A stretch of DNA of 44,560 bases from a bacterium. Lineage in GTDB: Bacteria; Myxococcota_A; UBA9160; SZUA-336. The notes under the pieces were generated by a model. It ran no database searches. It had not been told where the DNA came from and saw only the letters and a program-made list of their open reading frames with translations. Below, in pieces: positions 3,948 to 9,925 of this stretch. The DNA is taken from positions 1-44,560 of the forward strand of contig JAAELY010000489.1 in assembly GCA_024226335.1 (NCBI GenBank), read 5' to 3'. Made by a program: the position numbers and the translations under genes. Numbering within the stretch: position 1 is the first letter of the stretch; each line of letters starts with the position of its first letter.

Positions 3948-5750
3948 TCAGTTGTACTTCTGTTCGTTCTTCGGCACCCACCACTCGCCGAGATCCGTAC
4001 TCTCACTCGGATACCAGGTAACACCGTGAAAACGCCGGTCCCAGGCAGTAACGGCCCTCTTCATGAAGAGGAATGCGTAGGGCTGCTCTTCAAAGAGGAT
4101 CATCTGGAAGCGATCGATCAGCTTCTTGCGCCGAGCCGGATCGAACTCGACCCGGTAGTCCTCCAGCAACTGATCCACCTCATCGTTCTTGAAAGACACG
4201 TGGTTCGAACCGCCCTGTACCGCCTGCGAAGAGTGCCAGAGTTGATAGGGGTCCGGCGATACCACGCCCATCTGCCAGCCCAGGATCACGGCATCGTACT
4301 TCTGCCCGCGAACCTGTTCGAGCATGATGCCCCAGTCGATCTCGCGGAAGGATGCACCGATGCCCGCGCGCTTCATCTCGTCGATCACGACCAGGCCGAT
4401 CGCCTTGCGAATATCATTGCCGCTATTGGAGATGATCTCGAAGACCAGATCGCGCTTCTTTCCGCCCTGCGTCTTGTCCAGGACACCATCGCCGTCGGAG
4501 TCCTTCCAGCCCGCCTCCGCGAGCAACTTCTTGCCCTTCTCCGGATCGAACTCGTGCCCGGGCAGGCTCTTGTTGTACTCGCTGCGCCCGATGAAGATCG
4601 AACCCTCGACGGGAACTCCGAGGCCCAGAAGAACCTTGTCGATGATGCTCTGTTTGTCGATGAAGTAGCGAAGCGCGCGGCGCACGCGAACGTCCGAAAA
4701 GATCGGCTTCTTGGCATTCCATCCGATGTAGGTATAGCCCGGCGATACGTGCTCCTTCTTCTGGGCCTGCGCCTCGAAGCGGGTCGTACCGGTCTGGCGT
4801 TTGTGCTGTATGGGAGTCAGACCCATCACGTCGATATCGCGTCCCTTGAACGAAACCAGCGCGGCTTCCTTGTCGTTGATCACACGAAACAAGATCTTGT
4901 CGACGTAGGCATCTCCGAGTTCGGGATCTTCCGGCGCCCAGAAATCCGGGCGACGTGTCAGGAGAATCCGTTCCCCGGTGATGATATCCGTCTTCGGGTC
5001 CTTCAAAGTGAATGCGCCAGCGCCCATGACTTTGCGATCGTACTGTTCGTTGAATTGCTTGGCGAACTTCTGCGCGTTCGTCTTCTTCTTGCCGGTGAGC
5101 TTGTCGAATGCGTCGAGTTCGGGGATCGAGACCTCGGCCATCAGATCGTCAGGGTCGTAGAAGTGGCGCGGCAGTGGCTGAATCGAGCCGAGTACCAGGG
5201 TATTGCGGAAGTAGCGTTTTCTCAGGTCGAAGCGCACGGTGTACTTGTCCACGGCGACCACGTCGCGCACCGAGTCGAAGTAGTTGCGCGTCTGCGGGGC
5301 CATGACCTCGGGGTTCTTGATCGCCTTCATCGTGAAGACGACGTCCTCGGCGCTCAGCAGCTTGCCATCTGCGAAGGTCACGTCATCGCGCAGGCGGAAG
5401 GTGTAGGTGAGCTTGTCCTCGCTGATCTCGGGCAACAAGCTGGCGATGACCGGCCTCTGCTCGAGCGTCTGATTGTCGAGTGTCAGAAGAGGAGCCATCA
5501 TCAGGCTGAGGATGCTGTTGGACGACGCATCGTTGGACGTGAGCGGATTGAGGTTCTCGGGATCGGCCAGCAGCCAGCGCACCATCCAGTCACCCCGTAC
5601 GGGATGCCCGTTCTGCTCTCCGGAGTGCACTTCGGACGCGGGTGCATCGGCGGAATCGCCGCCGCCGCCACACGCCAACACCAAGCCGGCCAACAGAACC
5701 GCCAGCGACCGAGCCCGGACAGAGTGCCCGAGTTCTTCGCGATCTTGCAT
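3948..5750 (-). CDS. Peptide-type extracellular solute-binding lipoprotein (SBP_bac_5)
   Basis: This is the substrate-binding component of the adjacent importer, 600 residues, in the family of DppA/OppA binding proteins. The N-terminus is a lipoprotein signal: a basic stretch, a hydrophobic core and the lipobox L-V-L-A-C with Cys27. Family motifs follow, including NLNPLTSNDASS, the FRLRDDVTFADGKLLSAEDVVF region and the C-terminal dehydration of Pro/Trp-rich loops. The start at 5750 was chosen because the lipoprotein signal begins there and AGGGGGAGAG lies just upstream; the open frame continues 72 codons further without signal-like sequence. It is the first gene of the five-gene operon running left. 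The long open frame on the opposite strand is not a gene. Confidence 0.92.
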   Translation of the reverse strand: MQDREELGHSVRARSLAVLLAGLVLACGGGGDSADAPASEVHSGEQNGHPVRGDWMVRWLLADPENLNPLTSNDASSNSILSLMMAPLLTLDNQTLEQRPVIASLLPEISEDKLTYTFRLRDDVTFADGKLLSAEDVVFTMKAIKNPEVMAPQTRNYFDSVRDVVAVDKYTVRFDLRKRYFRNTLVLGSIQPLPRHFYDPDDLMAEVSIPELDAFDKLTGKKKTNAQKFAKQFNEQYDRKVMGAGAFTLKDPKTDIITGERILLTRRPDFWAPEDPELGDAYVDKILFRVINDKEAALVSFKGRDIDVMGLTPIQHKRQTGTTRFEAQAQKKEHVSPGYTYIGWNAKKPIFSDVRVRRALRYFIDKQSIIDKVLLGLGVPVEGSIFIGRSEYNKSLPGHEFDPEKGKKLLAEAGWKDSDGDGVLDKTQGGKKRDLVFEIISNSGNDIRKAIGLVVIDEMKRAGIGASFREIDWGIMLEQVRGQKYDAVILGWQMGVVSPDPYQLWHSSQAVQGGSNHVSFKNDEVDQLLEDYRVEFDPARRKKLIDRFQMILFEEQPYAFLFMKRAVTAWDRRFHGVTWYPSESTDLGEWWVPKNEQKYN

Positions 5751-6011
5751 CGAATCTCTCCCCCTGAACGCAAAACAGTGCGAGTCGGAATACTCGCGCC
5801 TACACATGGTGCGCGCTTGGATCGTCGCCAGCCAGTCCCTACCTGTAACTCGGCGAAGCTGGCCTTTCCGAACTGGCGTAGACTGCCGGTCGTTTCCTCT
5901 GACGACGGAAGAATCCTCGCTTGTCACAATCAGAATGCTACGATTTTTCTCGCTTATCCTGCGCATCCTTCATAACGCCCCCATCCTAAAGTCCTCCCCG
6001 CGAGGGACTCG

Positions 6012-6239
6012 ATGGAACAAAACGCGAGGCACAGCGAGACTGGATTGCAACCACCGATGCACATCCGCGAAGGTGCGGCCTTCAAGCTGTACATCGGTTG
6101 CGAGGTGATCGAAGTTCGATTCGACGCGCGTGGAATCTGTTTTCGGCACGCGGATAGATCTGACACGGAGGGCTTTTTGCCCTGGGATACCGCGATTGCG
6201 CTTTCCCTTCTTCCCGAGGAGATGAAGCGGACGTCTTGA
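6012..6239 (+). CDS. Small protein of unknown function (75 residues)
   Basis: I do not recognise a named family. The 75-residue product has a soluble, beta-rich look (FKLYIGCEVIEVRFDARGI) followed by an LPWDTAIALSLLPEEMKR tail, with no membrane span. A GAGGGA element lies about 6 bases before the ATG. It is divergent from the binding-protein gene and 121 bases before a kinase-like gene on the same strand, so it may be the first gene of a short transcript. Composition looks like protein rather than a shadow frame, and nothing competes on the other strand, but it is short. Confidence 0.6.
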   Translation: MEQNARHSETGLQPPMHIREGAAFKLYIGCEVIEVRFDARGICFRHADRSDTEGFLPWDTAIALSLLPEEMKRTS

Positions 6240-6360
6240 GTATCGGCGGCCTGAATCCCGGGGGAGATTGGCCGCGATTGCTTCTGGAATCGGTTACTGT
6301 GTGCGGTGTTGTTGATTTCGAGTGGCTGTGTTTGCGGCTTCACCGGGGGGTGATCGCCTG

Positions 6361-7161
6361 ATGAGCCCCTGGCTCTGGGCAGTAATTGGATTTTCGGGCG
6401 GCATCGGCGTGATGGCTGCGTGGGGTGTGTTGCGGCGTCAGCGCGATGCACGACGCGCAAGATCGCCGCTACCCGCATCGGAACTCCTGCGCGTCGTGCC
6501 CGATCCGATCGCCAGGCCCGAACCCGCCGCCAGACACGCTTCCAGGGGCGCCTCGGGCGGCATTGCAGGCGGCGGCGCGGAATGCGAAGCCACCGAGGTT
6601 GCACCGCCCCATCTGATCACTCTGCTCGGCCAGGCGATCCGCGGCTCATTGCGACAACTGCGACGCTGCGACGGCTTTTCGCCCGAAGCGCTCGCCCCGC
6701 TCGAGCGCATCGTCTGGCAGACGCGCATGCTCGTATCGCGACCGCGACCGATGCAGGCCAAACCCACCTCTCCAATCTCTCTCCTGCAGGAAGCGGCCGA
6801 GGAAGTTCCGCAGCTGCGCGACGGTATCGTCGGTGCATCCTGGAGTCTTTTGAACCGACAGCCCGCGCATGTCGATCCAGAGCGCATGCGCGCCGCCTTC
6901 CGCGAGTTATTGGTGTCCGGCGCCGAGATCGCCGGGAAGAACGGGCGAATGGGAATCAAGATCCTCCAGGGTTCGGAGCCTGGATTTCCAGTGCGCATCG
7001 AGATCGAGATCGGACGGCGTGGCACCGAACCCGATCCACTCACGATGCTCGTAACTCGTCATCTGATCGAGGCACAGGGGGGTCGGCTCGAAGTCGACGG
7101 GAATGTCACGCGTATCTTGCTGCGCAACGCGGCGCCAGAGGTCGAGAGTTCGGTCGCCTGA
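6361..7161 (+). CDS. Membrane-anchored protein with degenerate histidine-kinase-like ATPase domain
   Basis: The 266-residue product has one N-terminal membrane span (residues 5-23, followed by basic residues), an Ala/Pro-rich linker and a region resembling the core of sensor histidine kinases. The stretch near residues 110-165 reads like a dimerisation helix pair but I see no clear phospho-acceptor His with its usual neighbours. Residues 176-260 resemble a HATPase domain: an N-box-like segment (AAFRELLVSGAEIAG) that lacks the catalytic Asn, and a final IEAQGGRLEV segment like the kinase end motif. The GLGL box is not recognisable. It may therefore be a pseudokinase or scaffold. It converges on a receiver-domain regulator 16 bases away. 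ATG 6361 has a G-rich element upstream; an upstream GTG at 6322 is less likely. Confidence 0.7.
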   Translation: MSPWLWAVIGFSGGIGVMAAWGVLRRQRDARRARSPLPASELLRVVPDPIARPEPAARHASRGASGGIAGGGAECEATEVAPPHLITLLGQAIRGSLRQLRRCDGFSPEALAPLERIVWQTRMLVSRPRPMQAKPTSPISLLQEAAEEVPQLRDGIVGASWSLLNRQPAHVDPERMRAAFRELLVSGAEIAGKNGRMGIKILQGSEPGFPVRIEIEIGRRGTEPDPLTMLVTRHLIEAQGGRLEVDGNVTRILLRNAAPEVESSVA

Positions 7162-7177
7162 AACGATCGACGTCGGC

Positions 7178-7783
7178 TCAGATGCCCTCGAACAGATAGG
7201 CCATCGTCACACCGAGGGCGGTAGCCAGCTTGCGCAGTGTCGATACCGAAGCCGCGCTCTTGCCAAGTTCGATCTGCGAGATCAGGCTCACCGATAGCGC
7301 CGTCTTGTTCGCAAGCTGCTTGAGCGTCAGCGTCCGCTCCTTGCGCAACATGCGAATCTTCGCGCCGAGCACCTGGTTCACGCGCTCTTCTGCGTCGATC
7401 ATCAGGCCGCGCTCGCGAACGGCGCGCTGAATTACACCGCGCAACTGATCCAGATCGAACGGTTTGCGCAGATAGTCGAAAGCGTCCGCCTTCATGGTAT
7501 CGACGGCGCTCTCCACCGATGGGTAGGCAGTCATGATGATCACGCAAATATCGGAATCGATCGCGCGAATCTGGCGAAGCAACTCGACCCCGTCGGTTCC
7601 TGGCATGCGCACATCGAGCAACACGATCTGGTGGCGACCTTCCTTGATTTCGGGAAGGGCGTCGATCGGTTTGGTGATGGTCGAGACCCGGTAGCCTTCG
7701 CGGGTCAGAAATTCCTTCAGGTACAGACAGATATCTTCGTCATCGTCGATGACGAGAAGCCGCAGCTTCATCCGCTGTGACAT
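7178..7783 (-). CDS. Response regulator with receiver domain and XRE-type helix-turn-helix
   Basis: This 201-residue regulator joins a receiver domain to a C-terminal XRE/Cro-type helix-turn-helix. The receiver shows the acidic pocket (VIDDDED), the phospho-acceptor Asp in LLDVRMPG, the conserved Thr in IIMTAYPS and the Lys in LRKPFD. From about residue 138 the sequence LGAKIRMLRKERTLTLKQLA starts an XRE domain with a SVSLISQIELGKSAASVSTL recognition region. Most DNA-binding regulators of this kind carry OmpR, NarL or Fis-type output domains, so receiver-XRE is uncommon. The start at 7783 has GAGGGAG 5 bases upstream. The gene converges on the kinase-like gene; its cognate kinase is not otherwise visible. 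Confidence 0.93.
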   Translation of the reverse strand: MSQRMKLRLLVIDDDEDICLYLKEFLTREGYRVSTITKPIDALPEIKEGRHQIVLLDVRMPGTDGVELLRQIRAIDSDICVIIMTAYPSVESAVDTMKADAFDYLRKPFDLDQLRGVIQRAVRERGLMIDAEERVNQVLGAKIRMLRKERTLTLKQLANKTALSVSLISQIELGKSAASVSTLRKLATALGVTMAYLFEGI

Positions 7784-7955: not shown

Positions 7956-8627
7956 TCAAGGGGCGCGAGTTGCGGGTGCGCCTTCGACCCAGGCCCGAGA
8001 AAGATCGCTCTCCCCGAGATCTCGGTGAGGCGAGACTCTTTCGACCGACAACGACCCGACTTCCCCAACACCTTCCAAAATGGTGATTTCGCTCGGGAAA
8101 CGCTGGTCTTCCCAGTCCCGATAGCGACTCATCGCCAGTTCGCGACCGCCGGGCCGGACGACTCGGAGCACTTCAAAGCGATCTTTGTCGACCCACAATT
8201 GCCCACCGGAGAAGCGATTGCCCACCAGAAAACAGTCCCGCTCCCCGCAACGCGCCAGTTCACTTTCCAATAGGTTTACATCGTGGCGTCGGGCCCATCG
8301 GGTCAAATCAGCCTCTTCCCGCAGGACTAGAATTTCCAGGTCCGGCACCCAGGTCGGCGGCGGCATCAGGGTTCCCGCGACCACCTGACCCCTGCGAATC
8401 AGCCAGCGCCCCCCTTGTCCATCCCAGACCCGCGTCCCCAGTTCGGGGTGCATCTCGATGATGACCGTCGCAGGCCAGTCTTCTCCCAGTCCCGAAAGCG
8501 TGGTTTCGACGCGCAGCGGAAGTTGCTCGACGCGCCGTTCGGAGATCTGCTTGACGATGCGCGAACCGGGTAATACAAACGCCAGGAGACCCAGCGACAG
8601 CAGAGCGATGCCGAAGCGCCTGCTCAC
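7956..8627 (-). CDS. Exported or membrane-anchored protein of unknown function
   Basis: The 223-residue product begins with a basic tripeptide and a hydrophobic stretch (residues 5-20), consistent with a signal peptide or anchor. The remainder is soluble and beta-rich. The C-terminal half has a [15 protein letters not shown] segment followed by a FPSEITI strand, which recalls LolA/LolB-like periplasmic lipoprotein carriers; that resemblance is by eye only. Two cysteines flank ARCGERDC. The GTG start overlaps the enolase stop as GTGA, which argues for translational coupling and against the longer frame running into eno. It ends the minus-strand run that begins with the ABC importer. Confidence 0.75.
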
Positions 8628-9925
8628 GAACCCACCGAAGTCGCCGAGCGGAGAGCATCGGCACCTCGGAAGCGAGCCTTCGGCCCCAACTCCTGTTCGA
8701 TGCGCAGTAGTTGGTTGTACTTCGCAACGCGATCGGAACGGCACAGTGAGCCGGTCTTGATCTGTCCTGCATCTCGGCCAGCAGCCAGATCGGCGATCGT
8801 CGTGTCTTCAGTCTCGCCAGAGCGGTGTGAGATTACGGTCGTGTAGCTGGCGTCGTCGGCGATCTCGAGCGCCTCGAGCGTTTCGGTCAGCGTTCCGATC
8901 TGATTCAGCTTGATGAGGATCGAGTTCGCGACTCCGCGCTGTATACCATCCCGGAATATGGCCGGATTGGTGACGAAGAGATCGTCGCCCACGAGTTGCA
9001 CGCGATCCCCAATCGCGTCGGTCAGTTGCTTCCAACCATCCCAGTCGGTCTCGCCCAGACCATCTTCGATCGTCACGATCGGATAACGTGTGATCCAATC
9101 CTCGTACAGACGGATCATCTCGTCGCACGAGCGCGTAACACCCTCGCCGTAAAGCACGTACTGGTTGTCCTTATGAACCTCGCTCGCCGCGACATCCAGA
9201 CCGATCTGAATATCCTCACCAGGTCGGAAACCGGCCGCCTCGATACCCCGCAAGACCATTTCCACCGCCTGCTCGTTCGAATTGAGATCCGGCGCAAAAC
9301 CGCCTTCGTCTCCGACTCCAGTGGCGAACCCCGCCTGCTGTAGAACGTCGCGCAATGCGTGAAACACGCCGACGCCGTAACGCAGGCTCTCGGCGAAACT
9401 CTCGGCGCCCGTAGGCAGGATCATGAACTCCTGGAAATCGACCTTGTTCGCAGCGTGGGCACCTCCGTTGAGAATGTTCATCATCGGCAGGGGCAGCGAT
9501 GGCGTCCGAGACCCGGCGAGCCAGCGGAATAGCGATTGGCCGGAATCCACTGCCGCCGCGTGCGCGGCGGCCAGTGAGACCCCCAGGAGTGCGTTCGCTC
9601 CCAGGCGCGATTTGGTCGGTGTTCCATCGAGTTCGATCATCGCCGCATCGAGCGCCGCTTGTTCTTTGAGACCTCCGATCTCCAGAGGCTTCACGGCTTT
9701 TGCAAGCTCACCCGTGACATTGGCAACCGCGTTGGCCACCCCCTTGCCCTGGTAGCGCTCGCCGCCGTCGCGAAGCTCGAGCGCCTCGCGAATGCCCGTC
9801 GAAGCACCCGACGGCACGGCGGCCCGCCCCAGAGCTCCGGAATCCAGTTTTACATCGACTTCGACTGTCGGGTTGCCCCGGGAGTCGAGGATCTCGCGCG
9901 CGCTGACCTGCTCGATACGACTCAT
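8624..9925 (-). CDS. eno: Enolase
   Basis: Enolase converts 2-phosphoglycerate to phosphoenolpyruvate in glycolysis and is also part of the RNA degradosome in some bacteria. The 433-residue length is standard. Recognisable motifs are SGASTG near residue 40, [10 protein letters not shown] near 205, the metal ligands in VTIEDGL, and the C-terminal [14 protein letters not shown] and [16 protein letters not shown] blocks that carry the catalytic Lys and the substrate-binding Ser. It starts 46 bases after the importer ATPase gene and overlaps the following unknown gene, an unusual setting because eno often follows pyrG or precedes a divIC-like gene. Confidence 0.98.

Follow-up and report, generated by a model that had tools for sequence, protein, structure and literature searches.

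The locus and its question

Can a membrane protein that keeps the shape of a sensor kinase and has lost its catalytic residues still serve in signalling, and is the response regulator encoded tail to tail with it a dedicated partner? These questions are raised by two convergent open reading frames in the window (the whole stretch of 44,560 nucleotides that was analysed), one encoding a kinase-like protein and the other a receiver joined to an XRE-type DNA-binding domain, which the initial annotation had proposed as an unusual signalling pair. The features of the locus are collected in Table 1; for the kinase-like frame a further candidate start, GTG at 6322, is available in the same frame.

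Table 1. Genes and key codons of the locus, numbered along the window
Feature	Position	Strand	Description
Divergent gene, oligopeptide-transporter binding protein-like	3948..5966	-	Label by eye
Small upstream gene	6012..6239	+	75 aa; four strands and one helix predicted; without known family
Pseudo-histidine kinase	6361..7161	+	266 aa; ATG start
Codon of Q91	6631..6633	+	Aligned with phospho-acceptor His in both profile-profile comparisons
Codon of S186	6916..6918	+	Aligned with catalytic N-box Asn
Gap between convergent stop codons	7162..7177	.	16 bp; 6 bp in G005, 15 bp in G009
Receiver-XRE response regulator	7178..7783	-	201 aa; receiver residues 10-118, HTH_3 residues 143-197; DigR-type architecture

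The small protein encoded upstream, on which the initial annotation is silent, gave no Pfam match in six of its seven members, the remaining one matching DUF4224 at E 0.13, below the cut-off; a PDB search likewise returned nothing at E<=0.001. On the other side of the locus, a conserved gene (7956-8744, minus strand; cluster c6), whose product has no Pfam match at E<=10, is located between the regulator and an enolase-like gene. Promoter and terminator scans gave nothing exceeding chance.

A kinase fold of kinase descent

Neither Pfam nor NCBIfam gave a match at E<=1 for the kinase-like protein of the window, and among the seven homologues the best Pfam match, to HATPase_c, was found in a single member and was weak (E 0.088, under the cut-off). 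Comparison of a profile of the seven homologues with eight kinases gave a match of 98.5% (E 3.5e-15, score 113). An AlphaFold model, built from 7 alignment rows, reached a mean pLDDT of 79.6, with 10-residue means of 89-97 over residues 131-250 and of 83-92 over residues 81-130. This model matches the DHp and CA domains of kinase structures; among the matches listed, which are histidine kinases and their relatives (phytochromes and one pyruvate dehydrogenase kinase), the best Foldseek E was 1.7e-9 and the best VIA Z 16.6 (188 residues, rmsd 6.2), the CA domain of ThkA being aligned with Z 15.8 over 124 residues at rmsd 2.1. Profile matches in the PDB to DNA polymerase III psi (E 0.12-0.16) were taken as chance.

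The domains follow one another as a hydrophobic helix (residues 3-33), a low-confidence linker (about 35-78), a DHp-like hairpin (85-125) and a CA-like domain devoid of a lid (about 131-258). The hairpin is short, consisting of two model helices of 18 residues each whatever the register adopted, and a gap of 9 residues in its second helix was seen both in the profile alignment and in its rerun. One hydrophobic N-terminal stretch followed by basic residues is visible by eye in all seven homologues; this stretch and the model helix at 3-33 (pLDDT about 70) suggest that one anchor holds the protein in the membrane, its kinase-like portion being probably cytosolic. The profile match, the model and the PDB neighbours together indicate that the product has the DHp and CA fold of a histidine kinase and is of kinase descent.

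Proteins combining an AAA+ sigma-54-type domain, a HisKA domain and a CA-like domain lacking both the Asn and the lid also occur in the class (L087, L198-L207, L208). Matches to them at E<=1e-12 were found in 81 of 90 class genomes, the weaker ones being ordinary kinases, and Pfam was run on L087 only. The acceptor His is kept in all 10 of the non-f1 copies aligned (f1 being the family to which the window belongs), and the copy in the window's genome (G000:C49:16011-16631, in L208:2099-4138, plus strand) has Gln at this position. Descent of the pseudokinase from these proteins was considered and not adopted, the profile match (95.5%, score 61) being weaker than that to ordinary kinases.

Loss of the catalytic residues

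The register of the hairpin helix is not unique, since residue 91, 84 or about 77 can be placed at the acceptor position, in steps of seven residues. Residue 91 takes this place both in the comparison with ordinary kinases and in that with the profile of the AAA+ proteins, and in this register an H-box-like string is found, with R(+3) and L(+6) in seven of seven homologues and P(+5) in six. When the profile comparison was rerun under a different column rule, its start was shifted by one heptad, which brings H84 to the acceptor position; an HMMER alignment to L085 is shifted by yet another heptad, to about residue 77. On alignment grounds the residue-91 register appears the best supported, and that of H84 less likely. 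Residue 91 reads Q, D, T, D, N, E and A across the seven homologues, the acid that should follow the acceptor (A92 in the window) is Ala in all of them, and the phosphatase T/N position reads G, E, G, E, P, G and E. His is present at position 84 in five of the seven, lacking the usual H-box context, and no acceptor His in normal context is found in either register.

The CA-like domain has been stripped to a similar extent. The first N-box Asn position (E182 in the window) is occupied by E or A and the catalytic one (S186) by S, S, S, S, A, A and A; the G1 Asp position (I217) is I or V in all seven homologues and one G1 Gly position (R219) is R or S, the other G1 glycine (residue 221) being kept in five of the seven. 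The G2 glycine positions, P226 and T228, read P, A, S, P, S, P, P and T, S, S, V, A, P, A, respectively, and glycine is likewise missing at 227 and 229. In the model the ATP lid, which is the segment between G1 and G2, is deleted, eight residues linking the end of a strand at 217 to the start of a helix at 226. By profile, alignment and model, then, the protein lacks the residues and the lid required for ATP binding and autophosphorylation. The initial annotation, which had described a sensor-kinase outline devoid of both the phospho-acceptor His in its normal context and the catalytic Asn, was correct on these three points, and two of the examinations it had recommended agree with it: the profile searches gave no HATPase or HisKA match over the cut-off and profile alignment no clear active-site set, and structure prediction yielded the kinase fold with short hairpin and no lid.

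Could one His nevertheless be put to use? Phosphotransfer proteins of the Spo0B/ChpT kind need no ATP site, and it may be imagined that the kinase half is dead and that H84 carries phosphate between other proteins, as the one-heptad-off register and the occurrence of this residue in five homologues would allow. H84 is missing from the other two homologues, however, it precedes the modelled helix, which starts at residue 85, and the H-box context fits residue 91 instead, which makes this explanation highly unlikely.

Distribution and maintenance of the pseudokinase

The pseudokinase was found in 7 of 11 genomes of f1, the window included, and in none of 48 other genomes of the class, the six other homologues being 43-62% identical to the window protein. 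A seven-member profile run against 90 class genomes recovered the same seven strongly (E<=1.5e-100) and none of the 79 genomes outside f1; two f1 genomes gave a weak second match each, and 8 of the 79 also matched, but weakly (E 4e-6 to 9e-4). At E<=1e-5, matches were obtained in 11 of the 329 phylum genomes sampled, six of them strong, all from f1, and five weak. Ten weak-match proteins were aligned, eight of which have the usual N-box Asn, L087 and L090 being degenerate. A pattern-based scan of a collection of 84,980 species, which was not exhaustive as it missed G007 and G009, returned at least four pseudokinase loci (G010, G005, G004 and G006). Within what was searched, the pseudokinase is restricted to f1. 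A separate kinase-like frame with neither His nor Asn in its H and N boxes was noted in another family of the class (L090:1357-2385, minus strand; G015:C50).

The lost catalytic residues and the want of a family match might be taken to signal a decaying pseudogene or a chance open reading frame. Against this, the frames are intact in 7 genomes belonging to 6 genera, the invariant residues are non-catalytic (LRR 100-102, PRPM 128-131, W161 and F180), and dN/dS lies below 1 in 21 of 21 pairs, at values of 0.17-0.80 that are rough, dS being high. This explanation is largely refuted, the chance left to it being next to negligible; on the invariant residues and dN/dS, the pseudokinase is a maintained protein under selection.

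The receiver-XRE regulator

The product of the convergent gene matches Response_reg (7e-28) and HTH_3 (2e-13) in Pfam, and its receiver set is complete (D13, D14, D57, T85 and K107). A search at E<=1e-25 recovered the regulator from 36 of 59 genomes, usually as one strong copy, with two in G051. Of the 329 phylum genomes sampled, 154 gave a match at E<=1e-30, 47 of these belonging to the class and 107 not, although the weakest matches, at about 1e-31, may be other regulators. In the class its gene mostly lies near enolase-like and cobalamin-transport-like genes, as labelled by eye. In G230, a phylum genome of 10.3 Mb in a single contig, one of 20 HTH_3 matches falls in a receiver protein, and one other HTH_3 locus has a weak receiver match in a different frame. 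By its architecture the window regulator may be classed as DigR-type. Four matches to the DigR palindrome with 2 mismatches were counted in the window against 5.7 expected, and none within 6012-7783. A universal stress protein-like gene (cluster c7, labelled by eye) is convergent with the receiver-XRE gene in 11 pseudokinase-free loci of the class (L046, L047, L049, L056, L059, L061, L067 and L070-L073), occupying the same position in each.

The composition of the receiver pocket sets f1 apart from the rest of the class. The second acidic residue is Asp in all four f1 receivers and in all 20 receivers from outside the class, the latter chosen by hand among the 107 genomes that matched outside the class, and is kept in none of 27 class receivers outside f1, where R (9), P (9), H (3), S (3), Q (2) and T (1) are found; these 27 come from 30 loci, L060, L062 and L068 having been dropped as the ORF picker had selected a different frame. 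All 51 receivers retain D57, and among the 27 the first acidic position holds D or E, the T position holds T or S, and K is present in 26. In a tree of the 51 regulators, rooted only for drawing, the f1 proteins are placed between those from outside the class and those of the rest of the class. The simplest reading would be that this metal ligand was lost once, following the divergence of f1, and it is possible that the non-f1 class receivers (L046-L075) are under altered or phosphorylation-independent control. Family f1, which carries the pseudokinase, is also the only family sampled in the class whose receiver is complete, but as it is a single clade this may be coincidence. The regulator is older and more widespread than the pseudokinase.

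Pseudokinase and regulator do not form a fixed pair

The two genes adjoin in four of the seven pseudokinase genomes (G000, G005, G009 and G004), the pairing in G004 resting on the last 22 aa of the regulator at a contig start, and in the three genomes with the full sequence of both genes the stop codons are 6-16 bp apart. In the other three (G006, G007 and G010) the regulator is missing from the locus: in G006 and G007 the pseudokinase runs directly into the next gene, and in G010 two contig ends, overlapping by 29 bp, put this same next gene beside it. No receiver-XRE copy was found elsewhere in these three genomes, whose gaps as MAGs could hide a moved one. The reverse situation is met in G003, where an intact locus holds the regulator and the transporter-like gene without the pseudokinase or the small gene, and G008 has neither pseudokinase nor regulator and keeps the small gene and the transporter-like gene; the status of the pair could not be called for G001 (58% complete) and G002 (73%; the contig ends inside the regulator). 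In an enolase tree G007 groups with G009 and G008 with G010, most other branches being unresolved; as G007 and G009 belong to one genus, the regulator has been lost recently at least once. Since the pseudokinase is kept in three genomes that lack the regulator, the pair is not obligate, and the two proteins do not constitute a fixed signalling pair.

What the initial annotation had said of the neighbour and of the pair fares unevenly in this light. The regulator is, as described, a complete receiver with an XRE domain, and the view that another kinase supplies the phosphate is judged right, since any phosphate must come from elsewhere. Receiver-XRE is not the uncommon output it was held to be, given its occurrence across the phylum and the characterisation of DigR reported in PMC3509222. 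As to the signalling pair and its conservation among relatives, a pseudokinase with an adjoining regulator stands for four of the seven pseudokinase genomes, and a dedicated pair does not, with three genomes lacking the regulator and a solitary regulator in G003.

The pair proposed by the initial annotation may be put in more concrete form. In histidine kinases the surface on which the regulator docks lies on the DHp hairpin, and the pseudokinase could dock the receiver of its neighbour in the manner of DivL; the receiver, with its phosphate supplied by another kinase, would then be read, held or sequestered at the membrane. The tail-to-tail arrangement in four genomes and the complete acidic pocket of the four f1 receivers, against none of the 27 from other families of the class, are in favour, as is the precedent of DivL, described in PMC4211667 as having neither kinase nor phosphatase activity and yet binding DivK~P. 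On the other hand, the pseudokinase persists intact where the regulator is absent, the regulator for its part occurs without the pseudokinase both in G003 and beyond f1, and the short hairpin may have removed part of the docking surface, the place of the missing residues depending on the register. The convergent adjacency and the intact pocket seen only in f1 would fit a link, though in one clade they amount to at most one event. The DivL precedent keeps the idea alive, but because the pseudokinase has been retained where the regulator is gone, such docking is considered unlikely.

The neighbours on the other side are more constant. The small upstream gene accompanies the pseudokinase in seven of seven loci, and the transporter-like gene adjoins the two in all of them, whether or not the regulator is present. 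It could be proposed on this basis that the pseudokinase and the small protein serve the divergent transporter, in its assembly, sensing or control, and now stand outside two-component signalling. The argument is one of adjacency alone, however, and the transporter-like gene also occurs without the pseudokinase in G003 and G008; this proposal is regarded as decidedly unlikely.

Proposed mode of action

A pseudokinase that lacks the residues for ATP binding and autophosphorylation, as well as the lid, most likely acts by contact and not by catalysis. Its DHp-like hairpin and CA-like domain would bind a partner at the membrane, and this putative partner would most plausibly be an active kinase whose gene lies elsewhere, or the product of the small gene immediately upstream. 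The regulator, by analogy with DigR and its kinase SgmT, would receive its phosphate, if any, from a kinase with its gene at another locus, and the pseudokinase may influence it where both occur. Taken as a whole, the reading tentatively preferred here, to which not quite an even chance is given, is that of a catalytically dead, probably membrane-anchored kinase derivative which acts by contact and for which the DigR-type neighbour is not an obligate partner; a non-catalytic membrane adaptor is the most likely function.

A more elaborate scenario may be drawn up for f1, in which the small beta-rich protein and the stripped kinase core were recruited together between the transporter and the DigR-type regulator, as a contact-only membrane adaptor that would set the phosphorylation or the location of the orphan regulator, the receiver having stayed functional, within the class, in f1 alone and having become pocket-deficient in the sister families. 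This scenario is regarded as quite unlikely.

Comparison with known systems

What the locus does present is an extreme, lineage-restricted pseudo-histidine kinase beside a known type of regulator. No description of this pseudokinase was found in the literature searched. For the regulator, the nearest known system is DigR of Myxococcus xanthus, reported to be an orphan with a C-terminal HTH_Xre domain and to be phosphorylated at D53 by SgmT, a kinase whose gene lies apart from it (PMC3509222). The window regulator has the same receiver and HTH_Xre architecture and is an orphan in the sense that no functional kinase gene adjoins it; the likeness is one of architecture alone, and the window gene is set among enolase-like and transporter-like genes and the pseudokinase.

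For the kinase-like protein, two pseudokinases invite comparison. DivL of Caulobacter also has its acceptor His replaced and shares the DHp and CA fold (PMC4211667), its structure 4q20 being among the structure matches of the window protein; according to the same report its N, G1, F and G2 boxes are preserved and it contains PAS domains, whereas the window pseudokinase is devoid of PAS domains and its boxes are gone save for one G1 glycine. RocA of group A Streptococcus, as described in PMC7028121, is a pseudokinase that acts on the kinase CovS, and a comparison by description brings it close, as a membrane protein of kinase fold that works without kinase activity by interacting with a kinase; it differs in having six putative transmembrane helices and a dispensable His, H246. 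The window pseudokinase has one predicted transmembrane helix, a deleted lid and a short hairpin, and its partner is only putative.

The Spo0B and ChpT phosphotransferases are likewise kinase-like dimers with a dead CA domain, and the likeness of fold extends this far; they keep the His that carries the phosphate, whereas the pseudokinase has none in the better register and one in five of seven homologues in the other. The pseudo-histidine kinases that have been studied, DivL among them, usually keep much of the kinase core. That of f1 has lost nearly all the core residues in 6 genera and the protein still persists, so that it would provide a clean natural test of a kinase fold without phosphate chemistry. 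The receiver-XRE regulators supply a comparative frame in which, among the sampled proteins, the pocket is intact outside the class, has lost its second acid in the rest of the class, and is intact and accompanied by the pseudokinase in f1.
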